Shown here: positions 17,040 to 37,878 of the stretch, piece after piece | How positions within the stretch are numbered: position 1 is the stretch's first letter | How the letters are laid out: every line of letters begins with the position of its first letter | NCBI GenBank assembly: GCA_002696035.1 | Contig: NZQV01000023.1 | Coordinates: forward strand, 1-50,295 | Origin: Balneola sp. | Lineage (GTDB): Bacteria > Bacteroidota > Rhodothermia > Balneolales > Balneolaceae | Length of the DNA stretch: 50,295 nt | Direction of reading: 5' to 3' | Made by a program: the position numbers and the translations under genes | The notes under the pieces: model-generated | Told to the model about the DNA's origin: nothing | What the model saw: the letters and a program-made list of their open reading frames with translations, nothing else | Databases searched by the model: none

Positions 17040-17261
17040 ATGTCCAGGGTAGAAACCAAATCCATTTCTCAAATTCGCAGGAAAAACTATTCCCAAACGC
17101 TTAGTGAAGGCATTACAGCTATTACGCTGAATGGTGAATTTGTGGGTGTATTGATCACTTGCGAGGCGTCAACGCCCGAAATGGCCTCCCTTCGCCATAA
17201 GCGACTACTCGATAATCCGGTGCATACCATTACTGAACTCACCAAGCAGGTGCTTCAGTAA
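17040..17261 (+). CDS. Small Phd/YefM-like protein
   Basis: Seventy-three residues. The SISQIRRKNYSQTL start and the following ITLNGEFVGVLIT strand pair resemble the N-terminal DNA-binding fold of Phd/YefM antitoxins. No toxin partner lies next to it, so a regulatory role in the element is more likely than a toxin-antitoxin pair. The stop overlaps the next start (taATGc). Confidence 0.5.
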   Translation: MSRVETKSISQIRRKNYSQTLSEGITAITLNGEFVGVLITCEASTPEMASLRHKRLLDNPVHTITELTKQVLQ

Positions 17262-18274
17262 TGCAGAGCGGTTACGTAAACATATTACCAGATACCCAGC
17301 AGCAATACACCAGAGCACGGGCTGTGGATGCTTCTTTGGGAGCATCCACAGTACCTCTTTCTACCCGCCGACAAGCGTATCCCGGTGTGGAAGGCGTGCT
17401 TTCGGCGGCCAGCAGGCTGGTTACAAAATATACCGGCGACGAACGCATTCGCTCGCTGGCCCTCAAAATTACAAGCACGATCCGCCGGCACCGGCTTACC
17501 GGTCAACCCGACCTGCGAAATATTGACGCTATTGCCTCTGCCATATACAAATGGATGGTGCGTAACGTGAATTATGTGCGCGATCCGTGGGATGTCGAGC
17601 GTATTCAGTCGCCCTTTGTTACCATTACACAACGGGCCGGAGACTGCGATGATCATGCCATTTTAGGGGCTGCCTTGCTGCAAAGCTTAGGTATTCAAAC
17701 CGGTTTCAGAATCGTATCGAGAACCGGTCGGCACTTCGATCATATCTACGCCGTCTATCACTCCCCAACAGGCTGGAAATCATTCGACACAACGGTACTG
17801 AAATACCCCGGCTATGTGTTTGACGAGCGGCTCATTAAAAAATCCAGGCACGTCACAAACCAGATGCCGGAAGGTTTGGGGCTTGATCCCATTACGCTAC
17901 TCACCACGGCTACCACAATGGCCAGTACCGGGATGACGCTTAAAAATACTTTTTCCAGCATTTTTGGAGCCAAAGATAAAGATGAGCGTCAATTGCGCGG
18001 AGCCCTGCGAGACTACCTCATGCAGCGGGGCGTGCAATCCGAGGTGATCAGTCTTTCCCAAAAAGACAATGCCACCCTCCAGCGCTACGCGCAGATTATA
18101 GATGAACTTGGTGCCCCGGCGGTTCAGCGACTGAACCGTTACGGGAAACTTTCCCCGGTTTGGGTTACTCAACAACAAGCAGCAAATAAAACCAAAAAAA
18201 TGGGGCTGTATGCCGGAATTGCCATTGGGACCCTGGTTCTGATTGGTGGCGGGTATATGCTTCTAAACAAATAG
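17261..18274 (+). CDS. Transglutaminase-like cysteine hydrolase with C-terminal membrane anchor
   Basis: The 337-residue protein has a transglutaminase-like core with catalytic triad candidates C129 (AGDCDDHA), H161 (HFDHIYA) and D176 (KSFDTTV). In bacteria this superfamily includes peptidases and amide hydrolases acting on cell-wall or protein substrates. It begins with the MQSGYV motif shared by several neighbouring small proteins and ends in a single hydrophobic segment (about 312-334, GLYAGIAIGTLVLIGGGYML), so it is probably a virion-membrane protein whose enzymatic domain faces outward or inward across the internal membrane. Possible roles are local cell-wall opening at entry or protein maturation. 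Family assignment is good; role is inferred. Confidence 0.75.
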   Translation: MQSGYVNILPDTQQQYTRARAVDASLGASTVPLSTRRQAYPGVEGVLSAASRLVTKYTGDERIRSLALKITSTIRRHRLTGQPDLRNIDAIASAIYKWMVRNVNYVRDPWDVERIQSPFVTITQRAGDCDDHAILGAALLQSLGIQTGFRIVSRTGRHFDHIYAVYHSPTGWKSFDTTVLKYPGYVFDERLIKKSRHVTNQMPEGLGLDPITLLTTATTMASTGMTLKNTFSSIFGAKDKDERQLRGALRDYLMQRGVQSEVISLSQKDNATLQRYAQIIDELGAPAVQRLNRYGKLSPVWVTQQQAANKTKKMGLYAGIAIGTLVLIGGGYMLLNK

Positions 18275-18277
18275 ACC

Positions 18278-18700
18278 ATGAGTAATAGTGGATTTATCAT
18301 TCCCTTAGAGGATACTGTAATTGGTGAGGATGACGCGGTTATTGCCATAGCCCTCAGTCCGGGACTCGGCAACTGGGAAGAAACCGACCCGTGCCGATAC
18401 GCCAATCAAAGCTGTAAAGGCAAAATGTTTGGCAAGCTGAAAAGCTGCCGCCGCCAGCGCGAGAAAAGCCAGGCGCTCTGCAAAGCGCACGAAGCATCCC
18501 TACAAAAGAAAGCCCAGTGGGAAGGCCAGCGCGAGGAAATGATGCAGGCGCTCCAAACCAATATCACGACGACCGCTCAGCATCAACAAACGGCCAATTC
18601 AACCATGAAGTCAGGCATAGCTGTGGGTGGTGTTGCCCTTACCGGAGCTATTGCCTTGGCGGTTTTAATGCTGAAACGAAAAAAGAAATCTTCTAACTAA
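18278..18700 (+). CDS. Small membrane-anchored putative virion protein, Cys-rich
   Basis: 140 residues: start MSNSGFII (variant of the shared N-terminal SGY motif), a central segment with four cysteines (PCRYANQSCKGKMFGKLKSC plus ALC), a helical stretch, then a C-terminal membrane segment (about 109-132, SGIAVGGVALTGAIALAVLM) and basic tail KRKKKSSN. Fits a minor protein of an internal viral membrane. The start is 3 bp after the preceding stop. Confidence 0.65.
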   Translation: MSNSGFIIPLEDTVIGEDDAVIAIALSPGLGNWEETDPCRYANQSCKGKMFGKLKSCRRQREKSQALCKAHEASLQKKAQWEGQREEMMQALQTNITTTAQHQQTANSTMKSGIAVGGVALTGAIALAVLMLKRKKKSSN

Positions 18701-18713
18701 GCAGGCCTTTTCC

Positions 18714-19037
18714 ATGACCAAACAACCCAGCGGATATACCAGTTTTGATCTTCTCAACCAGAAAGCGGCTACCGTTGCCCAGCCCACTCAAACCAAATTT
18801 GGCTCGGCATTAACCTCTATCAGTGACCTGCTAAAGACGGCGACCGATACCGTGGTGACCATAGACGGGGTCGTCAACAAAGGCGGTAACAAGTCTGGGG
18901 GCGGACAACCAACCGTACTTTACCCAGGTCAAGGCGCACCTTCTCCCAGCGGCTCGGGTGAGCTAATAAAGTATGCGGGCATTGCAGGCATCGCCATTGG
19001 CGGTGGCATTATTCTACTCAAAGTGCTGAAGAAGTAA
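18714..19037 (+). CDS. Small membrane-anchored putative virion protein
   Basis: 107 residues: start MTKQPSGYTSF, a Ser/Gly/Pro-rich middle, and a C-terminal hydrophobic segment (about 83-103) containing AGIAIG, followed by KVLKK. The AGIAIG core also occurs in the anchors of the proteins at 17261 and 20383. No family known. Confidence 0.65.
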   Translation: MTKQPSGYTSFDLLNQKAATVAQPTQTKFGSALTSISDLLKTATDTVVTIDGVVNKGGNKSGGGQPTVLYPGQGAPSPSGSGELIKYAGIAGIAIGGGIILLKVLKK

Positions 19038-19039
19038 GT

Positions 19040-19309
19040 ATGCAAGCCGGACGAATTTCAACATTTCTGGATGGAGGCGTTCCAGGTGGCCATGCCCCTG
19101 TGGTATTGCCTGACACGGAAGACACTTCCTACGAACAGCCGGATATTCAGGTCATAGAAATGGGCGAAGGCGAAGAGCCTGCGGCCAAAAAACTATGCCA
19201 GCGACTTCAGGAGCAGCCGATTTCACTTTCGCAGTGGATACGGGATAACCAGAACAACTTACTAATCGCGGGTGGCCTGTATGTAGGTTACCGCTTGCTT
19301 CGGAGGTAA
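19040..19309 (+). CDS. Small membrane-anchored putative virion protein
   Basis: 89 residues: MQAGRISTFLDGG start, an acidic middle (QVIEMGEGEEPAAKK) and a short C-terminal hydrophobic segment (LLIAGGLYVGYRLLRR). It lies 2 bp after the previous gene. The GGAGG ribosome site of the next gene is embedded in its last codons. Confidence 0.62.
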   Translation: MQAGRISTFLDGGVPGGHAPVVLPDTEDTSYEQPDIQVIEMGEGEEPAAKKLCQRLQEQPISLSQWIRDNQNNLLIAGGLYVGYRLLRR

Positions 19310-19310
19310 G

Positions 19311-19994
19311 ATGAACGTGCAATCAGGATATATCGACACCGGGCTCGGGCAGCTCAACCTGTCCAGCAATATCATAAGCTCCGAGGCGGTAGAACTACGC
19401 ATTATCGGGCGTAACCCCGCCTCGGGCAACCCGCCCAGCGGGGTTCCGTTTTCGCTTGACCTTGAAATTGAAACCTTCCGGAATTGGGCCAAAGTACTAT
19501 TTGTACCGTTTATGGCCAGCTGGGGGCAATGCCCCGACGCCCTTGTGGTGGTTCGCTCGGAGCAGACCGGATCGGTGTTAGGCTTCCAGCGTTTCCGAAC
19601 CTCTATGATGGACGGATGCCGCGCACAGGAACGACTCCTTTTTGACCGCTCGTTTGTACCCACCTCAGCCCATAAAGTAATCTTTGAAGTGTATCCCGTT
19701 GATGTGGAAATGAGCAGGATTTCCGCTTCTGAGCTGATCGAAAAGTCCGCACCCATTTCTCTCGACCTGGACCAGAAAACCGGCGAGCAGTCGGGGGTAT
19801 ATTCTCCTCCCACAGAGTCGTGGTACAAGATGCCCGAACTTGGACCAGGCAATACCCTTGGGGAAGTGAACACGCTACTCAAACGGGTGATCATTATATC
19901 GGTTGCTGGTGCGGGCCTTTACTTCTTAGCCCCCATGCTCCCCGGACTTCGGGCGGGCGTAAAAGCCTTAGCTCCTAAAGCAGGTGCCGAATGA
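19311..19994 (+). CDS. Putative virion protein with beta domain and C-terminal membrane anchor
   Basis: 227 residues: MNVQSGYIDTGLG start (shared motif), a beta-rich domain (about 25-150) and a C-terminal hydrophobic segment (about 187-215, RVIIISVAGAGLYFLAPMLP). It is larger than its neighbours and could be a vertex or membrane-to-capsid linker protein. The start is chosen because of GGAGG 7 bases upstream. No family recognised. Confidence 0.65.
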   Translation: MNVQSGYIDTGLGQLNLSSNIISSEAVELRIIGRNPASGNPPSGVPFSLDLEIETFRNWAKVLFVPFMASWGQCPDALVVVRSEQTGSVLGFQRFRTSMMDGCRAQERLLFDRSFVPTSAHKVIFEVYPVDVEMSRISASELIEKSAPISLDLDQKTGEQSGVYSPPTESWYKMPELGPGNTLGEVNTLLKRVIIISVAGAGLYFLAPMLPGLRAGVKALAPKAGAE

Positions 19995-20386
19995 GATCCG
20001 GCTATGTAACACATACCGGTACCGGCCTGCTTGGCATGGACGATTACCTGCAGCGTACCTCACAGAACGCTTTCAAGTTATTTGCAGGAAAACTTCAGAG
20101 CGCTACAAGCGGTCGTCGCGGCCAGCTTGCGACGATGGGACTCAATCTTGCGAACCTTACAACGGATAAAAACGGCATTAATACAGTGTACCAAGATCAT
20201 GCGAGTGTGATTGATTCCTATTTCGAGTATGTGGACTTGGTGGCGCTGTCGGAAAAACTGGGCGTGGAAGAGGCGGTCTCGACAGGCGTGTCTCGCTCGC
20301 TGATCAAAACCGGATCACTGATTCTAATTGGCATGGCCATCGGAATAGCCGGACAACGAATAGTTACACGAAAAAGAAAACAATGA
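19991..20386 (+). CDS. Small membrane-anchored putative virion protein
   Basis: 131 residues: MRSGYVTHTGTGLLG start, a helical middle, and a C-terminal membrane segment (about 102-122, GSLILIGMAIGIAGQ) with basic tail TRKRKQ. It overlaps both neighbours by 4 bp (ATGA type), indicating coupled translation through this gene series. Confidence 0.65.
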   Translation: MRSGYVTHTGTGLLGMDDYLQRTSQNAFKLFAGKLQSATSGRRGQLATMGLNLANLTTDKNGINTVYQDHASVIDSYFEYVDLVALSEKLGVEEAVSTGVSRSLIKTGSLILIGMAIGIAGQRIVTRKRKQ

Positions 20387-20694
20387 CATTAAAGAAAGGC
20401 GACTCAGGACCACAGGTACTCCGGCTGCAAGCAGGACTTCAAAAAGCGGGCTTTGCGCTCCCTCAATATGGTATTGATGGCAAGTTTGGCCCGGAAACCC
20501 AGTCGGCGGTCATGCAAGCCCAGCGCCGATTTTCACTTCCGGTAACCGGCGTAGCTGGCCCCAACTTGCTGGCCAAATTGGGTGCGACCGGTCTTCCTTC
20601 CACCCAAAATTCAGCCCTGCTAAAGAAAACAGTACTCGCTGGGATTGCCATCGGAGCGCTGTTTGTGATCGCAAAAAAAATGAGGAAACGCTGA
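20383..20694 (+). CDS. Peptidoglycan-binding protein with C-terminal membrane anchor
   Basis: 103 residues: a PG_binding_1 domain (about 3-68; LKKGDSGPQVLRLQAGLQKA, then YGIDGKFGPETQSAVMQAQR) and a C-terminal hydrophobic segment (about 82-99, VLAGIAIGALFVIAK) with MRKR tail. This domain normally targets murein hydrolases; here it is tethered directly to a membrane with no catalytic domain. It could anchor the virion membrane or entry device to the cell wall, working with the transglutaminase-like and transglycosylase proteins of the element. Confidence 0.78.
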   Translation: MTLKKGDSGPQVLRLQAGLQKAGFALPQYGIDGKFGPETQSAVMQAQRRFSLPVTGVAGPNLLAKLGATGLPSTQNSALLKKTVLAGIAIGALFVIAKKMRKR

Positions 20695-20695
20695 G

Positions 20696-21943
20696 ATGGA
20701 CACCCAGAACACCATGAGCGCCAAAGAGCTGGCGACCCTCAACATCAAAGGCATTAAAATTGCGAATCCTTATGGGGCGCTTCTTGGAGAGCCGGAGAAA
20801 AATGCGGTCATCTTTATTTGGGGCGAAAAAGGTGCCGGAAAATCCACCTTCAGTTTGGGACTTGCCAACGCTTTGGCCCAGCACGGGCGAGTGGAATACA
20901 TCCCCGCCGAAGAGCATTTCGGGAAGACCTTGGTGGATCGGGTAAAACGCCTAAACGCTACCCATTCGAACCTCAATTTCACCAAATGGAAATCCCTTAC
21001 CAGCCTCAAAGAAATTCTGCTTAAAAATGGATCGGCCTTTTGTGTGCTTGACTCCATCACGGTGATCGATGCCAACGATAAAATGACGGTTGAACTGGCC
21101 CAATGGTGCCGAGAGCAAGGCATTGGTTTCATCATGGTGGCCCATGCAACCAAAGACGGAAAGTACAAAGGCAATACCAGTATTGCCCACGAGTGCGACA
21201 TCGAAATCAAGGTCACCAAAGAGGGTCTCGCCGAAACCGAAAAGAACCGCTATCAGGTGCTCAGCTCCATTGAGGTGCCCTTCACCTCCCCCCGAAACCA
21301 TGAATATGAAGAAGTAAAATCCGCTCCCGTGAAACGAGAAAACCCTGTTGACCTGCCATTTAGCATTTCACTTAAAGAAATCGACAAGCTCCACAAACTT
21401 CGCTCGTGGAAACGGGTGAATTCCCTGCTCGGCTCGAAAATGCCATGCTACGCCAAACAGCACTCTGGGGAATCCGAACGGGCTACCCTTAGCATTCGCT
21501 ACGTGCCCGACTACTACAACAAACGCTATATCGTAGAGCTGCTGATTGACGGGGAGCTGAAAACCCAGATTTGCACCAAAGGGGCCAAAGGTGGGTTTGC
21601 TGCTTCCTGGGCCCAGCTGGTGAAAAAGCACGGCAATCTGGAAGTGCAGATCCTCGCCCAGGATCACGCGAAGAAAGTGTTGGGCGCGCGAGAATACCGG
21701 AGGCAGGAAAAGTTGCAAGGGGGCAAGCCCGATTGCCCGCCAGCAAGAAAATCCAACACCAAGAAAAAGCGAAAACCTACTCCACCCAAGAAGAAAACGG
21801 TCAAGAAAAAACCGGCAGCAAAGAAATCCAAACCGGCACCTAAGCCTACCAAGCAGGCCACTCCAAAGCCCGAAGTGGATCTGGAAGCCGCCCGAAAAAG
21901 CCAAGCCAAACTCGACGCCTTTTTAGAAAAAGTCCTTAGCTAA
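20696..21943 (+). CDS. RecA/RadA-like ATPase with histone-H1-like basic tail
   Basis: 415 residues. A RecA-type P-loop domain (about 20-210) has Walker A GEKGAGKST near 43-51, Walker B FCVLDS ending at D119-S120, and a VAHATKDGKYKGNTSIAHEC segment that resembles the L2 region of RadA/RecA. The middle region (about 235-330) is not assigned. The C-terminal ~85 residues are extremely Lys/Pro/Ala-rich, like histone H1 or phage DNA-condensing tails. It may be a recombinase or a substitute packaging/condensing motor; it does not show the FtsK-HerA-type features of PRD1/PM2 packaging ATPases. It sits between the anchored proteins and the giant fusion gene. Confidence 0.72.
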   Translation: MDTQNTMSAKELATLNIKGIKIANPYGALLGEPEKNAVIFIWGEKGAGKSTFSLGLANALAQHGRVEYIPAEEHFGKTLVDRVKRLNATHSNLNFTKWKSLTSLKEILLKNGSAFCVLDSITVIDANDKMTVELAQWCREQGIGFIMVAHATKDGKYKGNTSIAHECDIEIKVTKEGLAETEKNRYQVLSSIEVPFTSPRNHEYEEVKSAPVKRENPVDLPFSISLKEIDKLHKLRSWKRVNSLLGSKMPCYAKQHSGESERATLSIRYVPDYYNKRYIVELLIDGELKTQICTKGAKGGFAASWAQLVKKHGNLEVQILAQDHAKKVLGAREYRRQEKLQGGKPDCPPARKSNTKKKRKPTPPKKKTVKKKPAAKKSKPAPKPTKQATPKPEVDLEAARKSQAKLDAFLEKVLS

Positions 21944-21946
21944 GCC

Positions 21947-24900
21947 ATGCCCGCAGTTAAAACAAATATCGACCAGATTACCCACCTGTCCACCGGCGAC
22001 TTTGATCACTGGCTGGGCGACTGGGATGCCGACGGGATTGTCAATATTGATGATCCCAACCCGCTTACGCCGGGCGATACCGCCCCGGTTTCTGAGGCCG
22101 AACTGGCACCGCAAATCAAGGCAGTGATCCAGGCGAAAAACAACTACATCCCGGCCCTGAAAAAAGTTATGAAAGGCCTAATCGGAATGAATTTGGCACT
22201 GGTTGTAAAGGGGCGCATTAAAGAAGTGTATTCCACTCTGGGCAAACTCATTCGCAAACGGTTCCCCTTTACCGAAAAGATAACTACCAAAGCCGGAGAA
22301 AAATATACTACCGGCCTGACTGATGTGGCAGGCTGTATGGCTATTGCCGAAACACAGGCGCAGGTAGATCAGATGGTGAAACGTATCCTCTCGGGCGAGC
22401 TGGGTGAAGTCTGGGAACACGAAGACAAATATAAACATCCGGCAAATGGCTACCGCGCCCATCATATTATTCTTGTAGTAGACAAGCAGTACCCGGTCGA
22501 AATCCAGGTAAAAACCAAACGCATGTCCATGATCTCGGCGGCCTCGCACCAGCCCTATAAAGTGGGCCAGCTTAACGGAGCGTTGCTGGAAGAATTGACC
22601 CAGCTCGCGTGGAAAGCCGACCAAGGCGACACCGAATCGGCGGAAAAACTGAAGCCGTATTTGGCCGATCTGGACGCGCTGGAAACCCAGCTTACCCTTC
22701 GATCCAATCCAAGTGGAGAACTCCAGCAACTTCAGGCAGATTTTGAGCAGACCATAGGCAAACTGGCACTGGCGTTTCAGCTGGACAAGTTTCCGGCGGA
22801 GCATAAAAAGGAAGCCCTGGAGCTTTTCAGGGCACACGGGCGCATCATCGGTGTAGATTTTGACGGGGTATTTAAAAATGCCTCTACTGGGCAATCAAAG
22901 CCCGCCAATCAACCCAAGAAGAAATCAGGCCAATCAACTTTTAAGTTTAGTGACACCGAGCTTTCGGAATTTGCTCCCATCAAACTGAAGGCTTCCGAGC
23001 GTCGCAAGGCCAACGAAGCGGCTATCGCTGTACTTCAAAAAGAAGACCGGGCGATTACCTCTGGCGATCTGGACGTGCTACGCTCTTACACCGGTGCGGG
23101 TGGTTTAGGCTACACCGAATCCACCGAACAGTCCAAACGGGGACTCCTTAATGAGCATTACACCTCATACCCGGTGGTCAAACTCATCTGGGATAAGCTT
23201 CAACAAATGGGCGTTACGGGCGGTAATATTTTAGAGCCCGGTTCGGGCGTAGGTAACTTTGCGGGTTTCCTTCCCGACCGCGAAAAATTCCGCATGGTCA
23301 TGATTGAACGCTCGGCCATCAGTTCCCGCATTGCCAGTCTTTTGTACCCGATGCAGACCGTGCGCCACGAGAACTTTGCCGAGACCGACCTTTCCCTGTA
23401 TAACTTAACCGGCGTGGTTGGGAACGTGCCCTTTGGGGACCTGAAAATCCATACCTCCCGCGACCCGCTGGCACCCCTTAGCCCCCGCATTCACGACTAT
23501 TTTATCCTGAAATCCCTGGACGCATTAAAGCCCGGCGGGTTTCTGGCTGTGATCAGCTCAACCGGCTCGATGGACAAAAAAGACCCGTCCATTCGGCAGG
23601 CAATGGTACAACGCGCCCGTTTTGTCGGGGCCTACCGGTTGCCATCGACGGCGTTTAAAGATAACGCCGACACGACCGTAACGACCGATATTCTATTTTT
23701 TCAGAAGTACGGGGAGCACCAGGGAGAAATCCATCCGGAGGTGGACTCCACACTCAACCGCTTGTTTGCCCATGACGCGCTGATCGAAAGCCGCGTTTCT
23801 CATAATGGGGAAACCTACACGGCCTATTACAATCCCTACTTCAAAGAGCACCCAAGCCACGTGTTGGGCGAACATATTCAGGGGCACCACGTACAGTTTT
23901 ATTCCCGCATGGGCGTAAAAGGCGAACTTTCTGAAGGCCTCATTCAGCGCGTACTATCTGACGGACTGTCTTTTCCTTACGCGCTTCCGGTCGAGATGCC
24001 GTTGTACAACATTCCCGATGACGGCATTATGCTCGACCTTCCAAGGTCATACCATCCGGGAAATATCATTGTCCACGAGAATCATTTTTACGAGAAACAG
24101 CGACGGTTTTTCAAGCGGCTTACGCTCAAAGGCGGCTCCGGACTGGAAGCCCGCATTCGTTCGGCCTGCCAGCTTCTGGACAAGTACGATGATTATATCA
24201 CGGCGCTGGCGCAGGAAACCATTGAAAAAGACGCCCTCCGCGCTGAATTCAAGCAGCTTTTATCAGCCCACATTGAACAGTATGGGGTTCCCGATGAAGA
24301 CGAAGACATTCGCAAGGTGTTCAAGTTTGATAACCGGCTCTACAAGCTCACGACCCTTGTGAAACGAGATCCGCTAAATGGGGAACTCGTGTATGCAGAT
24401 ATCATCGACGCCGATTCCATGTTCAATCGCAACTATGTGCCTACGGTCAAAGATTCTGACGACCTGGCCGAACTGGCGATGTTCGGGCGCAGTATTGGCG
24501 AGTCCTTAGATATTGACTTCTACCAATCGGTGTACAAAGGGGGTACAGCCAGCAAAGAGGAGCTGGAACAAGCACTCGGTCATCACCCCGATTTTTACTG
24601 GAATCCGGCCACCGGAAACCACGAATTTCGCTACCAGTACCTCTCCGGTAACGTGCGCGAGAAACTGCAACTGGCCCAAGAGCACGAGCTGGAAAAGAAC
24701 ATCAAGGCACTCGGGGAAGTCGTGCCCGAATGGATCGACGTGTACAATATTACCGTGGACCCGCAGCACGTGTTCACCTACCTGCCTGCCAAAGCCATTG
24801 AAGAGTGGATTGCTGGTGAAATGAACTACGATAAGGTAGAAATCGGCCTGGTCAAAGATAAGGCCGATCTGGGCAACCGGTTCTACATGAAACTCCGAAA

Positions 24901-27900
24901 ATGGGGTCGCTATGTGGGTACGGGCGATGAGACCCCGGACGACACCAACCTCGGCTGGGGCGAAACGCCGTTCACCAAGATCATTACCTCTTACATTCAG
25001 GACAGCACGTTTCCGCTTAAGTTCTATGATGAGGACGATACCTTGATGCCGTCCATGACGCTAAAAGAAGCCCAGTCCATGAAAGGCGAACGTGGCCAGA
25101 TGCTTATCGAACGGGCGCGAAAAATACAGCGCCAAAACAACAACCGGATGCTCACGCACGTGCCCAAAAAGTTCAACAACTGGGTGCGCACCAAAGCTTC
25201 ATCCGAAGTCCGGAGCCTGATCGAAACCGCCTACAACCAGACTTACAACGCGGTGATCAATCCGCCGTTTGACGGGCGCACGCTTCGGGTTCGCGGCATG
25301 AGCGACACCTTCTACGGGGTGAAAGACTTTACCGTGTACAAGCACAACCGCGCTATTGCCGAAAAGCTGGTATGGAATGGCAAAGGTGCCAATTGCCATG
25401 ACGTGGGAGCGGGAAAAACGCTGGCCTCCATTATTACTTCCCAAGTGCTCCTCCAGCAGGGAGCCGCCCGAAAACCGATGTTTGTGGTGCCCGGCAAAGT
25501 GCAGGAAAAATGGGTAGAAGAATACCTAATGCTCTTTCCTGACGCCAACGTCCTCAACATGAAAATGGCGGGTGGCGACAAACACAAAGAACTTACGATG
25601 GCCCAGCTGTACAACTGGGATGCTATTTTTATCGCCGACCACGCCTTTAAATCATTGCCATTGTCTCCGGCGGAGCAGGCTCGGATTTACCAAGAGCGCA
25701 TCGACTACTTCAACCAGATGCTGGAGAATTTCGAGGATCTGCTTGAGGAAGACGAGGCTATCTCGAAAGCAGCCAAGACCTCCATGATGAAACGCATGGA
25801 AAAACAGATGGAAGAATGGGAAACCAAGCTCCGCAATGTAGCGCATTCCAAACGTCTTGAAACCGATATTTTCTTTGACGAGCTGGGCGTGGACTGCCTG
25901 TTCTTTGACGAGGCGCATTTCTACAAAAACGCCCTTGGCTCTGCTAAAGCCGCCAAGATGGGAATCTCGGCCAACAAGCCTTCCCAGCGCGCCGAAGACG
26001 CCCTGCAAAAAACGCGATGGCTGTTCAGCAAAGTGGGCTATAAAAACGTGTTTGTGCTCACGGCAACCCCCGTAGTGAATTCCCCCGTGGAAGTGTGGCA
26101 CATGCTCAACTTGTGCGCCCCGGATCTGCTGGCCAAATACGAAATTGAAAACCTCGACAACTTCATTAATCTATTTGTCCGGGAAGAAGAAAAGATCGTC
26201 AAAAAGACCAACGGGGAATACCGCTCCGAGCGTGTAGTGGCCGGGTACTACAACCTACCTGAAATGCGCAAGATTATTGACGAGGTGATGGACATCAAGA
26301 GCTACGATCAACTCATCGGGTTCTACAAAGAGTTCCCCGACTACATTCAGGATGAAAACGGGAAGGTTATTAAAGGCAAAGACGGCAGGCCTAAAGTATT
26401 GGAGCCGAAATTCAAGCGCCCCAAGGCCAGTACCCACAACGTGATTATTGAACCCAGTGAGCTGCATAAGCTGCTTTTTGATGACATTATCCTCCGGGCC
26501 AACGAGGTCATTGCCTGCATGAAAGACCGGCAGTGTGAGACCCGCGACAACTTCCTGGTAATCACCGGCGACGGCAGCAAGATTGCGACCGACCTGCGGG
26601 TGTACGAAAAGGATTTTGAAGGCATCGACCGATCCTACCTAAAACTTGGGGCAATGGTGGAAAACGTGGCCGCTTCCTACGTAGCCCGTTCCAATCCGGC
26701 TCCCGAAATGGTTCCCGAAGACGTGTATGGTGACTATTTTCACCGGCCAGGAAAAGGTCAGGTGCCAATCACTCCTCCACACCTGCGCCAGAACCCAACC
26801 CATATTGAAGTCATCACCAGCAAGGGCGTGGTAAAGGAAAAAAGCGGCTACTGGGTGGTCTGGGATGAGAAAAAAGAAGTGTATGAGCCCTTGCATATAC
26901 TGAAGGCAAAAAAACCTGAACACACCTGGAGTGAAGGTATCTTTGGTAGCGAAAAAGAAGCTACCGAACGCGCCGAGAAGCTCAATAACGAGTGGGAACA
27001 GATTAAAGCCCGTCGATCTAATCCGGACAGCCCCGCCATTCGCAACCAGATTATTTTCTGCGACTGGATCAGCCTTCATCAGTCTCAGGGAGGAAGTTTC
27101 CACCAGCTCATCAAATCCGAGCTGGTCAAAGCCGGAATCCCCAAAGAGCAGATTGCGATCATCAACGGGTCCATCATTGGAACGAGCAAAAACGGGGATG
27201 ACTACTCCGTCAGTAGCAAAGACGACAAAGAAGTGCTTAAGAAAGAAGTGCAGGATGATTTTAACCAGGGTAAGTACCGGGTGGTGATTGGCAACCAATC
27301 CATTGCCGAGGGGATGAACCTTCAGAAGTGGACGACCGATATGCACCATATGGACGTACCCTACACCCCTTCGCAAATCCAGCAGCGCAATGGTCGTGGG
27401 CTTCGTCAGGGGAACCAGTACCCCGAAGTTCAAATTCATTACTACCTGATGCAGGATTCTTTTGATCAGTACCGCCTGGAACTGGTCTCTAAAAAACAGA
27501 GCTGGATTGATGACCTGTTCTTTGGGACTGGCCGAGAAGTCTCCACCGGGGGCGACTCGGAGTCGCTGGAATACGAGCAAATGGTTGCCGCTACCAACTC
27601 CGATCCGCGGGTTAAACAGTTCTTTGAGGCTTTAGCGCAAAAGAATGTGCTTGATGACCGAATTGACAATTTGGAATCTGAAGTGCAACGACTCGAAGCC
27701 AGCCAAACACAGGCGACCACCGATATCCAGAGCAAACAGGATCGCATGAAAAGCGTGGTAGAGCGGGAAACAGCCCTACAAAACTCGAAGCTCCCCGAAA
27801 GTGCGGATCTTGCCCTAAAGGAGAACCTGTTTGAGGCGCAGTACGGGTGGAACGGCGAGCCGTACCAACTCGATATCCAATTGAGCTCAGACTCCAAACG

Positions 27901-29176: not shown

Positions 29177-29204
29177 ACCACCCGCCAGAACAACGAAGGC
29201 ACCT

Positions 29205-29708
29205 ATGAAAGAACGCGTGTTCGCCAAGAACCCTTCCGAGCTACAAATCATCGAAAACCCAAACAAACGACGCAGTAACATGGCAAAAGAAAACAAAATC
29301 ACTACCGAGAAGGCGGTCTCTGAATTCAAGCAGCAGGCTATCACCGCCGGATACATTCTTGGTGGGCAAGCTGTAGCAGCGCAGGTTAATGCCCTGGCCG
29401 TCCCCATGCTGACAGGCAACGCATCTGCTACCATTCAACAAGCAACACGAGCGGGGATCCCACTTACCGCCGGCGTGCTCCTAACTCTAATGACCAAGAA
29501 CAAACACGTTCGCGGTCTGGCAATGGGTATGGGCGTGCAAGGCGTAATGGAGATCATCAAATTTATTATGCCTGACTGGACGCCCCAGCAAGGCCTGATG
29601 AATGGCTCCAACTACGTGTATGATGGGATCCCTGAGATCCCCGAAGCCACGCATCATGTAGATGAAGTGGAAACTTCCATGGAAGTGAGTAACACCATCG
29701 AAGTGTAG
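29205..29708 (+). CDS. Putative membrane protein preceding the capsid genes
   Basis: 167 residues from 29205; an internal ATG at 29281 is an alternative start. The N-terminal ~25 residues are basic (KNPSELQIIENPNKRR). Two or three moderately hydrophobic segments follow (about 45-65, 75-95 and 100-125), then an acidic tail. It could be an integral protein of the internal membrane or a scaffold. No family recognised. A hairpin-rich 90-bp gap separates it from the next gene, suggesting a new transcription unit there. Confidence 0.6.
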   Translation: MKERVFAKNPSELQIIENPNKRRSNMAKENKITTEKAVSEFKQQAITAGYILGGQAVAAQVNALAVPMLTGNASATIQQATRAGIPLTAGVLLTLMTKNKHVRGLAMGMGVQGVMEIIKFIMPDWTPQQGLMNGSNYVYDGIPEIPEATHHVDEVETSMEVSNTIEV

Positions 29709-29799
29709 AGACATCGACTTATAGCTCTGATTTGCCAAGGGGGTACTGGTAATACCGAAATGGCTAACAGCCACCTTCTAAACCCTTAAAAACACAGTT

Positions 29800-30411
29800 A
29801 TGAGCAACAAAATTAGCAAAAAGGCCTTGGTGCCTGCCACTGCCCGTATCAAAACCTATTTTGATACCCGTAAAGTAGAGCAAAACCAAACAGTAGTTAA
29901 TTTCTTTCCAGCCAATGCAGATCGAAAACTTACCCGAGATAATTATGTAAGTAACCCCTTCCCCGGTGCCATGAAGCGTCGGATTCTTGGTCTTTCGTTT
30001 GAACTCACCAAACAGTTCATCGAAGACGACCCCGCTAACGGCATTGATACGCGAGCCATCGTAAACGGGCTCAAAGATGCAGCAATTCTGTTACAGGCAG
30101 ACAACGACAATAAAGAATTCCTTCGCGCTCCGATGAGTGAGTTTTCCAACTTTTCAGGTACAGGCATTCAGTTCACTTCTGCTACCAACAACACTGTTGA
30201 TGCTGTAGCTGAATATCGAAGATTGGTTACTATGAAATCGGCCAGTGAATACCGTTTAGCTGATCCATTTGATTTGGCTATCAATCAAACGGTTTCCCTT
30301 GCGGTCCATTTCAATGATGCCTCGGTATTTCCAACCTCCGACAACTGGAATCAATCCGGACAGGGAGAGCTTTGGCTCAGGGCTTCTCTGGTAGTCGCAG
30401 AAGTTGAGTAA
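29800..30411 (+). CDS. Candidate capsid protein (jelly-roll type)
   Basis: 203 residues, soluble and beta-rich, with segments such as RRILGLSFELTKQF, YRLADPFDLAINQTVSLAVH and ELWLRASLVVAEV that look like jelly-roll strands. It has its own leader and its own strong intrinsic terminator, which suggests separate high-level expression as for a major coat protein. It is directly followed by a second beta protein with an internal duplication (30492). Together they could be the two coat proteins, or one major coat and one cement/vertex protein. No sequence homologue is claimed. Confidence 0.6.
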   Translation: MSNKISKKALVPATARIKTYFDTRKVEQNQTVVNFFPANADRKLTRDNYVSNPFPGAMKRRILGLSFELTKQFIEDDPANGIDTRAIVNGLKDAAILLQADNDNKEFLRAPMSEFSNFSGTGIQFTSATNNTVDAVAEYRRLVTMKSASEYRLADPFDLAINQTVSLAVHFNDASVFPTSDNWNQSGQGELWLRASLVVAEVE

Positions 30412-30421
30412 TCCATCCCGA

Positions 30422-30460
30422 CCCGTCGTTTTCAGTTCGCTGATTCCGACGGGTTTTTTA
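30422..30460 (+). terminator. Intrinsic terminator after the candidate capsid gene
   Basis: Stem CCCGTCG (30422-30428) with CGACGGG (30447-30453), followed by six T residues. One of the clearest terminators in the window; it isolates the 29800 gene from the downstream genes. Confidence 0.85.
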
Positions 30461-30491
30461 ACTCTTATAACGACTACTCCAAACCAAAGCC

Positions 30492-31268
30492 ATGAAGATT
30501 ATCACCAATTTTATACCTCCTAAAGAAAGCTCGGCCTACAATCCGGCGAAATCCATTGAAGTTCAACCGGGAGCGTCCGCCAACCTTACCATGAATGGCA
30601 TGGGTGGAGAGCGCTTTGGCATCCGAAAAATTCTCCCGTTTAGCCCCAACATGGATGCCATATTGATTTCGGCCCGACTCAACGAAGACTTATACTTGTT
30701 TCGGGATATTCAGCTTTCTGTAGTGCACAACCTGTTCAAATCCATTGACGGGCTATTTGCGCCCTTCATCATTCAGAAGAATAACCACATCGTTTTTGAA
30801 CTCACCAACACCGGTGCTGCTAAACAAATGGTCAATATTCAGCTTGTAGGCTACGACCAGTTTGCCCTTTCCAAGCTCAACGCTGCTTACCAGCAGATTG
30901 GAGCATCGTTTCCCGTACCCCGCTTTTTATATGGTCATGGCACCGTTCCGGCTGGCGGGCTCAACATTGATCTGAGCGTGAAAAGTAAAAGTGTGGACGT
31001 GGAAGTGCGCCGCATGGCCATGAGCAGCAACCTGCCCGGAGCCATTACCGCTTCGATGAAAGTCTACAACACCACTGTTCGCGATGAAATATACCTGGAG
31101 CAAGTAAACGACGAATTCAATGATAAGTACATCAACGTGCCCTTTGTTGTGGGTTCGAATGTACCCTTTGACGTGTACGCTTCCAACTACGGAGTCCAAC
31201 CGGCCGAGGTAAGTTTTCTCTGCGAGAGCTATGTGCAAGCCAAATCCGGATTCACCCCAGCGGAGTAA
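30492..31268 (+). CDS. Candidate double-jelly-roll capsid protein
   Basis: 258 residues, beta-rich. Residues about 24-123 and 151-249 align as two ~100-residue repeats without large gaps. Each starts with a P-[GA]-[AG] turn (VQPGAS/TVPAGG), then a VRR/IRK strand (FGIRKILPFS/VEVRRMAMSS), then an [AF]PF-centred strand (LFAPFIIQKNNHIVFELTN/INVPFVVGSNVPFDVYASN), and each ends LVGYDQ/CESYVQ. A tandem duplication of a ~100-residue beta unit is what a minimal double-jelly-roll coat protein would show; PM2 P2, the smallest known, has about 269 residues. The interpretation needs a structure model. Confidence 0.62.
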   Translation: MKIITNFIPPKESSAYNPAKSIEVQPGASANLTMNGMGGERFGIRKILPFSPNMDAILISARLNEDLYLFRDIQLSVVHNLFKSIDGLFAPFIIQKNNHIVFELTNTGAAKQMVNIQLVGYDQFALSKLNAAYQQIGASFPVPRFLYGHGTVPAGGLNIDLSVKSKSVDVEVRRMAMSSNLPGAITASMKVYNTTVRDEIYLEQVNDEFNDKYINVPFVVGSNVPFDVYASNYGVQPAEVSFLCESYVQAKSGFTPAE

Positions 31269-31270
31269 TC

Positions 31271-31684
31271 ATGCTAAATGAATTGATCAAAGTACTCTGC
31301 GAGCTAACGGCCAATGTGGAAGCTCTGGTGAAAAATCAGCAGCAGAAAACGGGTGGAAAACCCCGTCAAGGTCGTATTTCTTCCTCCATTTCCCCGGTTA
31401 TGAAACAGGATCAGCAACCTATTCGGCTGGTAAACGAAAATCCGCACCGCTTAGGGGTGATCATCCAAAACAGCAGTGAAGGCGAGCTGATGATTGCTCT
31501 AGACAGCCAACGCATCTCTGAGAAGTATTACACATTCAAGCTCCGAGCTGGGGAAACCCTTCACTTTGATATTCGGAGTTTCGGCGAGCTCTACAAAGGA
31601 GGCTTTATGGGACTTTGGGATGAGGCGACTGGTCCCGGAGCAGAGTCCAAAGCCTTAGTTACCGAAATCTTCTGGAGCAACTGA
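31271..31684 (+). CDS. Small beta-sandwich virion protein
   Basis: 137 residues. An N-terminal helical and basic linker is followed by a single beta-sandwich (about 58-137: RLGVIIQNSSEGELMIAL, TFKLRAGETLHFDIRS, ALVTEIFWSN). This layout is common in small phage decoration or vertex proteins. It lies 2 bp after the previous gene and its stop overlaps the next start, so it is made with the structural set. Could be a penton or cement protein. Confidence 0.6.
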   Translation: MLNELIKVLCELTANVEALVKNQQQKTGGKPRQGRISSSISPVMKQDQQPIRLVNENPHRLGVIIQNSSEGELMIALDSQRISEKYYTFKLRAGETLHFDIRSFGELYKGGFMGLWDEATGPGAESKALVTEIFWSN

Positions 31685-32262
31685 TGAGTAAGATATCCGG
31701 ACAGGAATTTGGCATGAATGAAAACTTCAAGATGCGGGTCGTGAGCGGTATGCTTGTGGACGGTTCTATCCTCATCTCGTGGGCCACCGGAGAGCCTGCA
31801 TCGAGCCAAATTGATTGGGGATGGGACGACTCGGTTCCTTTTCAAACTCCGGAAGTGCATGCTGAGCCGGATGAGATGGTGCGTTATCACCAGCTCTATC
31901 TGCCACAAACACTGGTGGATCAGCGGCATTATTTTCGCGTGCGCTCGCGAACTGAACATGGGGAAACCGGAATCTCGGATATCTACATGGTGGTTGTGCC
32001 TCCGGATCTAGCCATTAAAAACCGTGGGCGACTCGCTAACGAAACCCAGCTGGAATTGGTGCTGGTTAAAACAACCAATATTGACTGCACGAGCTTTCCA
32101 GTGACTTCCATTTCGGGCTACCGCACCGAGCCTATTTCCTCCGATCAGCCTGCCTTGATTGCACATGAAAACACCGAGTCGGCTCCCTTGGATAAACTCA
32201 TCTCTGTGAGTCCGGATACTAACAGCTCGCTGTCCACCAGAATCACCTATACCATTACATAA
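31684..32262 (+). CDS. Fibronectin-III-like virion protein
   Basis: 192 residues. Residues about 18-105 look like a fibronectin type III or related Ig-like domain (GSILISWATGEPASSQIDWG, then HYFRVRSRTEHGETG). The C-terminal ~85 residues are polar and unassigned. Such domains are often found on phage surface proteins that bind hosts. It lies between a beta-sandwich protein and the spike-like protein, so a spike-base role is plausible. Confidence 0.58.
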   Translation: MSKISGQEFGMNENFKMRVVSGMLVDGSILISWATGEPASSQIDWGWDDSVPFQTPEVHAEPDEMVRYHQLYLPQTLVDQRHYFRVRSRTEHGETGISDIYMVVVPPDLAIKNRGRLANETQLELVLVKTTNIDCTSFPVTSISGYRTEPISSDQPALIAHENTESAPLDKLISVSPDTNSSLSTRITYTIT

Positions 32263-32270
32263 ACCCATAT

Positions 32271-33692
32271 TTGCATAACTCATCACCCATGAAAACCATC
32301 ACAACAGATTTAAACGTCGGAAAAACGGCAAGCGGTCTCGACATGTACTGCGACCTGTCTCTGGAACAGCGGCACCTGTACCGCATGAAATGCGAAAGCT
32401 TTGTTGGAAACCTGCTCAAATGGATGCGCATCCAAATGGGCAAGACCAATCAGGATGACTACTGGGATGGCTATAATACCCGAAAAAATATCACCAATAT
32501 TATTAGCATCGTTGAATCCGGTGATGATTTGATTATTGAGCTTTCTGATTACCACGAATACAACACCGTGGAGCACGACCTGATTACCATTCAAGGAGTC
32601 ATTGGTCTGGAGGGATTAAACGGGGTGTATTATCACGACAACACCAAAGGGCCATTTCCGCTTGACCGTCATAGCCGATACAAGTATTTCATTCGCGGAA
32701 TTGTGCCACATCTGACCGGAGTGTGGGATGGAAATTCAGGGGTTTCGATAGCGGCCAAATACCGAAACCAGTGGGCGTCCAATGACTATCATTTGCCCCT
32801 GAACTGGAACCCTATTATCGGTATGAGTAATCAGGCTGTCAAGGCCTCTGATTTATGCCTGCCAGGATATTTCAAGCGTGGATGTACTCAGGGTAATGTA
32901 TCCATTACTTCCCTTATTACCGATCAAGAAAGCTCCAAGTTTACGCTATCCCGTCCGTTCACCAACATGACGGGGGCCATCCGGGATATCAAGGAAATTG
33001 GCATTATGGCTGGCGATTACCGAAGTGCCTACATGCTCATGGCACGAGACGTGCTGGGGGCTCCGATTAGCCTTGGCGACACGTCCACGTTGTCGCTGGA
33101 TTACGAGATCATTTCCATGATTGAGAACTTTAACCAGGATACCGAGGCAAACGGCACCAATGGTGGGTGGACGGTGAACTTCATGTACATTCTACACCGG
33201 ATTGCCAACCCAAGTGCCCAGTACAACTGGGAAAACGAATTCCACTTTACCGCTGGATTGGGTGGTGGGGGCACGGGCGTAAACTTCAGCTACGACCGCA
33301 ATTTGAACGGCTGGCAATTTGGCGTTCGTGTAGGTGAATCTAACAAGTACGTCTCCATGACCGACCAGTCACTTACTCCGGAAAATGCGGAAGTAAATGG
33401 GGTTCCCCACGGATATGGAGACGGAGAGCTGGTGCATCACGGCACGCACATTGGGCAACTCGTGGTCGATGATGTTGTAAACGAAGTCTATTTCCCGGTT
33501 GAACGTATTTTCGAAAATAAAGGAACTACACCCATTACAGTTCGAGAAATTGGGCTTTTCGGCAACAAGAACAACTCAAGTAATATCTCTCCTCACTTGC
33601 TGGCTCGAAAAGCCCTGGCTCCTATTGATCAGTTTATCATACAGCCGGGCGAGACCGCCAAGGTCACCTTTAACTGCAAGGCGATTGTATAG
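32271..33692 (+). CDS. Spike / receptor-binding-like virion protein
   Basis: 473 residues, beta-rich, no membrane segment. The C-terminus (about 430-473: ITVREIGLFGN, LLARKALAP, then QPGETAKVTFNC) matches a motif common at the ends of phage tail-fibre and receptor-binding proteins. A Gly-rich GLGGGGTGVNFSYD loop lies near 332. In a tailless particle it would be a vertex spike. The M at 32289 (MKTITTD) is a good alternative start, preceded by a CATAACTCATCACCC leader. The last base of the stop overlaps the GTG start of the transglycosylase gene. Confidence 0.6.
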   Translation: MHNSSPMKTITTDLNVGKTASGLDMYCDLSLEQRHLYRMKCESFVGNLLKWMRIQMGKTNQDDYWDGYNTRKNITNIISIVESGDDLIIELSDYHEYNTVEHDLITIQGVIGLEGLNGVYYHDNTKGPFPLDRHSRYKYFIRGIVPHLTGVWDGNSGVSIAAKYRNQWASNDYHLPLNWNPIIGMSNQAVKASDLCLPGYFKRGCTQGNVSITSLITDQESSKFTLSRPFTNMTGAIRDIKEIGIMAGDYRSAYMLMARDVLGAPISLGDTSTLSLDYEIISMIENFNQDTEANGTNGGWTVNFMYILHRIANPSAQYNWENEFHFTAGLGGGGTGVNFSYDRNLNGWQFGVRVGESNKYVSMTDQSLTPENAEVNGVPHGYGDGELVHHGTHIGQLVVDDVVNEVYFPVERIFENKGTTPITVREIGLFGNKNNSSNISPHLLARKALAPIDQFIIQPGETAKVTFNCKAIV

Positions 33693-34246
33693 TGAGTAGC
33701 GCCCTGTCCATATCCTCCCAGCTCAGCTACCTTCGGGTTAAAGGCATTATGGAGCACTTTTATGAAGCCTCACGGGCGTACAATGTGCCTGTTTCCCTGC
33801 TATTGGCTATTGCCTCCAGGGAAAGCAATATGGGCCTGGCTCTGGATGGTAACTGGACGGGCGATAATGGCAATGGCATTGGCATCATGCAAATTGACCG
33901 CCGATATCATTCTGGGTTTACCAGTAATCATGCCAATAAGGATCACCGGGCCAATGTGCTTTACGGGAGTAAATTCCTCGCAGATCTGATAGCCAAATTT
34001 GGTGGGCAGCTCACTCCTGCCGTTGCGGCCTACAACGCTGGTTACGCTAAAGTACAAAACACGGTTAGCGCTGGCATTGATCCCAACCTGGTAACCACCG
34101 GGCAAAACTACGCGTTCGATGTGCTACGTCGAAAAGAAATCGTCGAGTCAATACTGGGCATTACCAAAGCGTCCGCAGCAAGTATGGTAATTCTACCTCT
34201 TTTAATCACAGGATTTATTTCCTACCAAATCTTTAACACTCAATAA
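33692..34246 (+). CDS. Lytic transglycosylase (SLT/goose-lysozyme-like) with C-terminal membrane segment
   Basis: 184 residues, GTG start overlapping the previous stop. A lysozyme-fold domain (about 18-135) has candidate catalytic E44 in ASRESNMGLA, the GIGIMQID strand and the AVAAYNAGY motif typical of SLT transglycosylases. It cleaves the glycan strands of peptidoglycan. The C-terminal ~22 residues form a membrane segment (MVILPLLITGFISYQIF). The anchor suggests a virion-associated entry enzyme rather than a free endolysin. Confidence 0.82.
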   Translation: MSSALSISSQLSYLRVKGIMEHFYEASRAYNVPVSLLLAIASRESNMGLALDGNWTGDNGNGIGIMQIDRRYHSGFTSNHANKDHRANVLYGSKFLADLIAKFGGQLTPAVAAYNAGYAKVQNTVSAGIDPNLVTTGQNYAFDVLRRKEIVESILGITKASAASMVILPLLITGFISYQIFNTQ

Positions 34247-34252
34247 ACCACT

Positions 34253-34618
34253 ATGAAATCATCCTCCAGATTTTTGTACAGCGATGAAAACTCGCCAGGC
34301 TTGGGACTTACGATGTTGGACCCAACACTACATACAGAATTGAATACGTCTATTCAGCCGGTTTCCCCAACCATACCACGACGACCGACATTATCCATTT
34401 CGCCGGGGCTTCCTCGCAGAATCAGAAAGCCACTTCTTCCAACATTACCCAGAATTAAACCACCAAAAGTAACTCCAGCTGTTCGTGATTTAACCCAGCC
34501 TGCAACCACTAACAGCGAGACGGTAGCCACTCAGAAAAAACCACTCAACACGAAGATGATCGCATTGGCCGGGGCCGGTATTGTTGGAGCAGGAATCCTC
34601 TTAAAAATCTTACGCTAA
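34253..34618 (+). CDS. Small membrane-anchored putative virion protein, Pro-rich
   Basis: 121 residues: start MKSSSRFLYSDENSPGLGLT (related to the shared N-terminal motif), a Pro/Arg-rich extended middle (PRRPTLSISPGLPRRIRKPL) and a C-terminal hydrophobic segment (about 101-117, ALAGAGIVGAGILLK). The extended middle could bridge membrane and capsid. No family known. Confidence 0.65.
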   Translation: MKSSSRFLYSDENSPGLGLTMLDPTLHTELNTSIQPVSPTIPRRPTLSISPGLPRRIRKPLLPTLPRIKPPKVTPAVRDLTQPATTNSETVATQKKPLNTKMIALAGAGIVGAGILLKILR

Positions 34619-34634
34619 CCTAACTTAGAAAAAC

Positions 34635-34865
34635 ATGAGTAAATCAAGATATACCTCTGATACCGGCCTTGGCTGTGGATGTAATAACGGAGCCGGAATT
34701 GGTTCCTCCCCCGTAGTGGACGTAAAAAACGCCCAGGCTGAAGACACCAAAACAGATTTGGTGGATACCGCCAAGAAATACATCAATGGCGAGGTGCCGA
34801 TGAAATACAAAGTGGCTGCTATCGCCCTTGGCGCAGGCTTTCTCTGGCTAAAGTTCAAGAAATAG
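34635..34865 (+). CDS. Small membrane-anchored putative virion protein
   Basis: 76 residues: start MSKSRYTSDTGLGCGCNNGA, whose DTGLG matches the start of the 19311 protein; a polar middle; and a C-terminal hydrophobic segment (YKVAAIALGAGFLWLKFKK). Short even for this series, but with both shared end features. Confidence 0.65.
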   Translation: MSKSRYTSDTGLGCGCNNGAGIGSSPVVDVKNAQAEDTKTDLVDTAKKYINGEVPMKYKVAAIALGAGFLWLKFKK

Positions 34866-37139: not shown

Positions 37140-37141
37140 GC

Positions 37142-37636: not shown

Positions 37637-37639
37637 TTA

Positions 37640-37878
37640 AATTAGTATAATTGTCAAGTAATTGACAGGTTTATTTTTTGATTGAATACACTAAAAGATT
37701 GTTACCTATAAACATGACATGCAAATGTAGTAAATATTACAACCTCTATTCAGATTCTTTTTGAACAAATCCTGAACAGAATTATCCATAGATAGAAAAG
37801 CATACACAATACCATTTGTTTGAGGCGGAGCCTCTATGGGGCATCACGGAGCGGAGCGCGGTGGCGAGGGCAAGTTCC
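37640..37878. other. Intergenic region upstream of the TAC module
   Basis: About 240 bp with no gene: an AT-rich leader just upstream of the toxin start, including TTGTCAAGTAATTGACAGG (possible operator TGTCAAG/..TTGACA), then a GC-rich stretch of about 60 bp near 37830-37870. Confidence 0.4.

Follow-up and report, generated by a model that had tools for sequence, protein, structure and literature searches.

How viruses with an internal membrane choose and tether their membrane proteins is, in our view, largely unresolved, and the question is posed here by an SSIP-1-like element in a 50,295-nucleotide stretch of Balneola sp. DNA (GenBank assembly GCA_002696035.1, contig NZQV01000023.1, positions 1 to 50,295), hereafter the window. 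SSIP-1, a tailless phage, is, judged by sequence and among the viruses found, the closest described virus to this element; portions of PMC6356626 and PMC4958249 describe it as containing a membrane and having major capsid proteins of two types. Several proteins of the element with different middles share two ends, an N-terminal peptide of the form S-x-(Y/F), often followed by GLG, and a C-terminal membrane anchor. The presence of this peptide, its conservation, its enrichment, its lineage-specific versions and the predicted anchors are directly supported by what follows.

The comparison drew on 26 copies of the element together with SSIP-1. Lineage A comprises the window, G000 contig 23, G001, G002, G004, G006, G056 and G107, with G054 and G105 as a side branch; lineage B comprises G047, G014, G055, G032, G101, G099a, G102a, G102b, G103a and G103b; and single or few relatives are represented by G067, by G104, G106a, G106b and G099b, and by G102c. 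Genes of the window are named by their first position. Eight of the ten open reading frames (ORFs) curated as C-terminally anchored carry the peptide, and the last two in the following list do not.

17261..18274, + strand: transglutaminase-fold protein of 337 amino acids, N-terminus MQSGY, C-terminal anchor (Transglut_core 2.9e-8; homologue of SSIP-1 gp34); SGY motif at 17267..17275, + strand.
18278..18700, + strand: anchored protein of 140 amino acids, MSNSGF, basic tail KRKKK, GLG at 18362-18370; SGF motif at 18287..18295, + strand, from sequence.
18714..19037, + strand: anchored protein of 107 amino acids, MTKQPSGY; SGY motif at 18729..18737, + strand, from sequence.
19040..19309, + strand: protein of 89 amino acids counted as anchored, STFLDG; STF motif at 19058..19066, + strand, from orthologue comparison.
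19311..19994, + strand: anchored protein of 227 amino acids, MNVQSGYIDTGLG ahead of a conserved domain; SGY motif at 19323..19331, + strand, and GLG at 19341-19349, from sequence and orthologues.
19991..20386, + strand: anchored protein of 131 amino acids, MRSGY, from orthologue comparison; SGY motif at 19997..20005, + strand, from sequence.
34253..34618, + strand: tether-like protein with S-x-(Y/F), GLG at 34298-34306, a variable linker and an anchor, from orthologue comparison; SRF motif at 34265..34273, + strand (SGY in the other seven of the eight core lineage A elements).
34635..34865, + strand: anchored protein of 76 amino acids, SRYTSDTGLGCGC, GLG at 34665-34673, from orthologue comparison; SRY motif at 34644..34652, + strand, from sequence.
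20383..20694, + strand: anchored peptidoglycan-binding protein without the motif (domain match).
33692..34246, + strand: SLT transglycosylase with a C-terminal anchor, without the motif (domain match).

A preliminary description of this DNA had proposed a shared SGY-type N-terminal motif, and the N-termini that it named are where it placed them (SGY in 17261, 18714, 19311 and 19991, SGF in 18278, SRY in 34635). The sharing of the peptide holds, but strict SGY was dropped as the motif in favour of S-x-(Y/F). The 'weaker versions' that it saw in 19040 and 34253 are present as STF and SRF, although 19040 in fact carries the motif in full (SxFLDG, or SHFIDG in lineage B). It had also remarked on AGIAIG in the anchors of 17261, 18714 and 20383, which is there and is written with different codons, so that recent DNA duplication was rejected, as it had argued. 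As part of the signal, AGIAIG was rejected too, being lost in the lineage B orthologues shown and thus a generic anchor sequence. Hydrophilic residues predominate in the tails, whose proteins are anchored at the C-terminus, often with a basic stretch after the anchor; the C-terminal segment of 19040 is weakly hydrophobic (1.18) and the automatic scan scores it as unanchored. Six of the seven tagged proteins tried (34635 not among them) fall in no Pfam family at its cut-off, and in PHROGs the best match of the two tried was no better than 0.09. Judged by its sequence, 34253 is the clearest tether, for it retains little beyond peptide and anchor around a variable, Pro- and Arg-rich linker, and its lineage B copies keep S-x-Y...GLGR. 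In the 34635 family, some lineage B relatives have two copies or lack the first, and some lineage B copies appear to repeat the unit. GCGC (Cys-Gly-Cys) repeats adjoin GLG in this family and also occur in a transglutaminase-fold relative (L088:9958), past its catalytic domain.

In residues 2-14, S[GSAHTRKN][YF], a residue class widened after the orthologues were seen, occurs in 8/10 curated anchored ORFs and in 1/14 others (Fisher p = 4.9e-4; the sole other is 35401, with SKY), where the others include 29205 and 35720, although 35720 does have a hydrophobic segment, some 36 residues short of the end. The host background is 9/256 ORFs of the element's own host and 1/130 ORFs of the G067 host. 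The counts that follow, and those for the motif-free, shuffle and L...L(G/S) analyses, rest on automatic anchor labels set by a hydropathy cut-off, some of which are wrong (16623 and 17040 are labelled anchored, 19040 is not). Strict SG[YF] in residues 2-20 is found in 5/12 anchored and 0/12 other ORFs, against 1/256 and 0/130 host ORFs. S[GSAHTRK][YF] is observed in 7/12 window tails, a number reached in 0/3000 within-tail shuffles, and GLG in 4/12 against a shuffle mean of 0.37. De novo motif discovery by expectation-maximization, which the preliminary description had suggested applying to N-termini of related elements, recovers S-S-Y-L in A/B and S-G-F-L in G067, and held-out anchored families score above other element proteins, to a degree that depends on motif width (leave-one-out, one-sided p for widths 4, 6 and 8: 0.019, 0.0027 and 0.0054 in A/B; 0.035, 0.022 and 0.054 in G067).

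Orthologues of the two lineages bear this out, the motif being neither absent nor unconserved among them. Within residues 2-14 it is present in 10/10 A and 9/10 B copies of 17261 (the missed copy, from G103b, had no ATG/GTG/TTG start chosen ahead of its homologous tail), in all 20 copies of both 18278 and 18714 (10/10 A and 10/10 B in each), and in 10/10 A and 9/9 B copies of 34253, where GLG accompanies it in 19/19; distant 34253 copies were assigned by position after the transglycosylase gene. For 19311 the figures are 10/10 A and 7/10 B, or 10/10 B within residues 2-34. In 19040 they are 10/10 A and 0/7 B, the lineage B SHFIDG lying further in (7/7 only within residues 2-34). The untagged families score 0/9 A and 0/9 B (20383) and 0/10 A and 2/9 B (33692), and fourteen other families score zero save 30492 (7/10 A), 35401 (2/10 A) and 32271 (1/10 B). 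Orthologue starts were picked by distance from the previous gene, and the 30492 score arises because some of its starts were probably called several residues late, which brings an internal SAY into range. In the looser range of 2-34, 34869 is also positive (8/10 A and 3/10 B). Equal occurrence in unanchored proteins was thus not seen in lineages A and B, and the expected confinement to anchored proteins is largely borne out, but 29205, and two G102c proteins with the peptide of their own lineage, show no anchor in the scans (see below).

Whole-protein identity between the window and G047 is 29-60%, and at that distance most families retain the serine and the aromatic but not the residue that separates the two. 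In 17261, 18278, 18714, 19311, 34253 and 29205 the middle residue is Gly in most core A copies and never Gly in B, and the side branch G054/G105 is mixed, three of these families having Gly there. Atypical forms occur in the window's own 34253 (SRF), 34635 (SRY) and 29205 (SNY); 19040 and 34635 stand outside the pattern, two B copies of 34635 having SGY. This lineage-wise shift is suggestive, at the level of sequence, of one common partner, and is what a change in a single partner would lead one to expect. The spacing from the aromatic to the GLG-type element is also steady within families, at 23-24 residues in 18278, 4-5 in 19311, 8-10 in 34253 and 5 in 34635 (10-14 in three B rows measured); the alignment dropped rows without the regular expression, which makes serine and aromatic 100% there by construction. 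In 18278, GLG is present in 10/10 A copies and is mostly GLE in B, with a spacing of 23 in 16/17 rows when either is allowed, and in 19311 the distance to GLG/GLS is 4 in 17/18 rows measured.

One further protein carries the motif at its other end.

29205..29708, + strand: SSIP-1 gp44 homologue with the motif near its C-terminus (homology).
29607..29615, + strand: its SNY motif (SGY in 8/10 A and S(D/E)Y in 10/10 B orthologues).

Its S-x-Y lies 33-46 residues before the C-terminus in 20/20 A and B copies. The G067 homologue has the motif twice, as SGF and SGY; those of G104 and G106a have one motif each, elsewhere in the protein, SSIP-1 gp44 has none, and no homologue was matched in G099b or G102c. 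The family also keeps an N-terminal AKNP..L.I.ENP-like stretch in homologues out to SSIP-1 gp44.

More distant relatives have shared peptides of their own. Several anchored ORFs of G067, most of them with no window homologue, begin SGFLSD, SGFLHD, SGFLAD or SGFIHG; SGF(L/I)x(D/G) is found in 6/11 anchored and 1/12 other ORFs of this element and in 0/386 host ORFs, and SGF(L/I) in 6/11 anchored ORFs, where shuffling gives 0.02 on average. G067 also yields a motif-free signal of its own (z values below). The sole 'other' match is probably the ATPase, with SGFIWG beside its P-loop. G099b, G104, G106a and G102c share another form, a leucine at residues 3-5 followed by L(G/S), which occurs in 7/12 anchored versus 0/8 other ORFs in G099b (two starts corrected by hand), 4/10 versus 0/10 in G104 (one of the four, 5984, probably spurious), 2/4 versus 0/7 in G106a and 6/9 versus 3/19 in G102c (one of the six, L093:11257, probably spurious; two of the three others anchorless proteins that clearly have the peptide), and in 34/386 host ORFs; since the pattern was drawn up after all four relatives had been seen, it does not amount to a held-out test. 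These dialects are connected by the gene that follows the transglycosylase, with GLGR in most A/B copies, LGR(L/I) in G104, G106a and G099b, and LGKR in one of two in G102c, a link made throughout by position and by eye. By eye, P23-77, PM2 and PRD1 have no comparable tag.

We read the terminal peptide as a docking tag that an SSIP-1-like phage uses on a set of non-homologous virion proteins, chiefly membrane proteins, with the shell as the likeliest partner, and on the sequence evidence we give this reading an even chance. From these data we infer that the window proteins would be present in virions and would bind there, together with the partner's identity, the orientation of the proteins and the flexibility of their tails. 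The C-terminal anchor would hold each anchored protein in the internal membrane, while a flexible N-terminal tail would offer S-x-aromatic, often with GLG, to one common partner, and 29205 would offer the motif from its C-terminal tail. That partner would most likely be the inner face of an icosahedral shell built from two candidate capsid proteins, so that the tag would tie shell to membrane and sort the right proteins into the virion.

29800..30411, + strand: capsid-protein candidate 1, SSIP-1 gp45 homologue (phmmer 1e-14).
30492..31268, + strand: capsid-protein candidate 2, SSIP-1 gp47 homologue, predicted double beta-barrel (phmmer 2e-10; tblastn 2e-5).

The 29800 model, with a predicted local distance difference test (pLDDT) score of 77, gave no Foldseek match at 1e-3 or better. 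The 30492 model (pLDDT 88.7) is mostly beta and resembles the major capsid protein of Sulfolobus turreted icosahedral virus (Z 10.1; root mean square deviation 4.9, 228 aligned), PM2 P2 (Z 8.3; 4.9, 205) and PRD1 P3 (Z 8.2; 5.2, 229), but peptidylglycine alpha-hydroxylating monooxygenase (PHM) enzymes match it equally well or better, up to Z 11.7. This predicted fold contrasts with the placement of SSIP-1, in part of PMC4958249, among viruses with two major capsid proteins and vertical single beta-barrels. The 30492 family has an N-terminal (Y/F)-x-P-(A/S) stretch of its own at residues 13-20, kept across the lineages seen (SSAYNPAKS, TNYTPSQ, AQYFTPAR, PYFSPSEN).

A number of observations weigh against a docking tag of this kind. 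The motif is found within residues 2-14 in only 5/10 A and 0/9 B copies of 19991, where DY...DG(L/M)G replaces it in G054, G105 and lineage B, and in 10/10 A but 1/10 B copies of 34635. Tag and anchor also come apart: 20383 and 33692 are anchored yet lack S-x-(Y/F), although they may be located elsewhere in the particle; 29205 shows no anchor in hydropathy scans; and two similar G102c proteins (L093:9344 and L093:9941) plainly bear their lineage's peptide without an anchor on the scan. S-x-aromatic alone is not exclusive, since SAY also occurs at residues 14-16 of 30492, the capsid candidate, though in another conserved setting (SSAYNP). SSIP-1 has no such tag in residues 2-12 of any anchored ORF (0/12), and G(L/M)(G/A) occurs there in 5/12 anchored ORFs and 1/13 others. 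Orthologue counts are not independent, the A copies being close kin, as are the B copies. Finally, pairwise scoring of N-termini without any preset motif gives a null result for the window alone (z = 0.2), as it is in G054 (-0.3) and G047 (0.6), and is weak in G102c (1.2), G104 (1.6) and G099b (1.6). Its z is higher in G103b (2.5), in SSIP-1 (2.7, with unanchored proteins also scoring 2.0) and in G067 (4.7 and 7.3), and the control stretch 41-79 of G102c (4.1) exceeds its N-termini; the values for P23-77 (3.2), PM2 (0.7) and PRD1 (3.4) may, in the first and last, reflect hydrophobic N-terminal segments. Significance therefore rests on orthologues, host background and distant relatives; what carries the case is the contrast with host ORFs, the conservation among orthologues and the independent G067 set, to which the L...L(G/S) relatives add less weight.

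The main rival to docking is that the tails are substrates of the 17261 transglutaminase-fold enzyme, either cut at a small-Leu-small (GLG-like) site or cross-linked in maturation, and we consider it unlikely. The enzyme has a Cys-His-Asp triad (C129-H161-D176) invariant in 9/9 homologues including SSIP-1 gp34, and its PDB sequence matches are to 3isr, a transglutaminase-like putative cysteine protease (8e-4), 6egc, a designed protein (0.015), and 4u65_E, a 'putative cystine protease' (0.078). Adenovirus protease recognises short sites. LapG, a protease of the same type as 17261 would be, cleaves LapA within the N-terminal part, where the site is conserved (PMC3032545, in part), and GLG stands at a near-constant distance past the aromatic within families and in the linker after the catalytic domain of the enzyme itself (5/5 A/B rows). 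Yet residues 5-45 contain no G(L/M/I)(G/S) in any of the 20/20 orthologues of 17261 or the 20/20 of 18714, which argues against a single GLG cleavage consensus, and GLG is missing from 18278 in lineage B, whereas S-x-aromatic is more widely kept. A discarded leader would need no conservation upstream of GLG, and a cut at SG|Y would take off no more than a few residues. The idea of a glutamine donor site for transglutamination was weighed and set aside, Gln preceding the motif in some families only.

About equally improbable is a role for the tag in bringing its proteins to a partner outside the capsid; that partner could be an assembly chaperone, the ATPase, another membrane protein or part of the packaging machinery. 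Such a partner would fit the 29205 and G102c proteins that bear the peptide without an anchor, and other proteins of the element (15886 and 16623) are kept in most related elements compared; eight tagged families plus 29205 nevertheless suggest a partner present in many copies, as the shell would be. Residual homology, in which the N-terminal residues would simply be inherited from one ancestral anchored protein and would serve no shared partner, strikes us as very unlikely. Most tagged genes do adjoin (17261-20386), and G067 has a similar neighbouring protein pair, but the middles look unrelated, the codons differ, and the motif holds two positions constant around a variable one; functionless ancestry would hardly keep these, or a motif at the opposite end of 29205, or different shared peptides by lineage. 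The observation is confirmed and extended, and docking to a common partner is a plausible interpretation of it; the bipartite address proposed in the preliminary description, a membrane anchor plus a capsid-docking peptide, is supported in part. Beyond this, and more tentatively, the peptides of the different lineages (S-x-aromatic...GLG, SGFLxD and L...L(G/S)) could make up a virion-wide address code, read by one shell receptor and co-changing with it as lineages diverge, an extension that the sequences compared leave possible but somewhat doubtful.

The kinship with SSIP-1 extends over much of the element.

20696..21943, + strand: ATPase, SSIP-1 gp40 homologue (sequence match; 34.5% identity, 48% of the query covered, 3e-26).

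Homologues of gp34, gp44, gp45, gp47 and the anchored SLT protein are also present; in the SSIP-1 annotation gp34, gp44, gp45 and gp47 are structural and gp35, the 19311 homologue, is not. An ORF of 2409 amino acids occupies the place matching the giant methyltransferase gp43, with no phmmer match at or below 1e-3 to SSIP-1 ORFs. In three divergent relatives the ATPase and the giant protein appear, by eye, to be fused in ORFs of 1017-1455 amino acids with an ATPase-like start and a giant-protein-like C-terminus (RG(L/I)LN), at L088:14902-19104, L090 14814-19181 (reverse-complement coordinates) and L092:16060-19113. Homologues of 29800 were found in 21/128 genomes of the order and in 15/394 of a phylum-wide sample, all 15 in the same order, and those of 30492 in 21/244 genomes of the class; named matches are to Balneolaceae and relatives, e.g. 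Gracilimonas, Balneola, Rhodohalobacter and Fodinibius/Aliifodinibius. Scans of viral contigs with the ATPase and 30492 as single sequences, and with A1, confirmed none, and A4 led to one contig. The window's own genome carries a second related provirus (G000 contig 23; L040/L041) with homologues of 28/28 window genes compared. Beside the element, 36207-45563 holds likely defence genes, including a type IIG restriction-methyltransferase (1234 amino acids), an AAA ATPase resembling AriA/GajA/Old and matches to the candidate systems PDC-M34B and PDC-M64.

Our literature searches of open-licence papers found no description of such a tag. SSIP-1 itself shares the transglutaminase-fold protein, the ATPase, gp44, the capsid candidates gp45/gp47 and the anchored SLT protein, but has G(L/M)(G/A) elements only in place of the S-x-aromatic tag. 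Encapsulin shells have the HK97 fold, whereas the shell candidate 30492 is a predicted double beta-barrel. As in encapsulin cargo, where short terminal peptides direct different proteins into a protein shell (parts of PMC7925596), one short terminal peptide is common to different proteins here, although encapsulin targeting peptides are described in the same parts of that source as C-terminal, and those of the window are mostly N-terminal and on membrane-anchored proteins. LapG-type proteases have the same kind of triad and cut their substrate in its N-terminal part, at a site that is short and conserved (PMC3032545, in part), but LapG acts on an adhesin, and 17261 is only a putative protease, with a weak sequence match to such proteins. 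A further parallel, likened by description and in keeping with docking, is SH1, for which proteins under the capsomers were proposed to span the gap to the membrane with disordered linkers, left unassigned in the structure; the portions of that account consulted mention no shared sequence tag for its minor capsid and membrane proteins (PMC6441041). If true, the address code would give a sequence identity to the disordered tethers that have been inferred to run from capsid to membrane in viruses of this kind. A short peptide on eight or nine proteins of one phage would make the tethering question open to mutation, and the tag would be a portable means of loading membrane proteins into particles and offers a way to spot virion membrane proteins in elements that are otherwise dissimilar.

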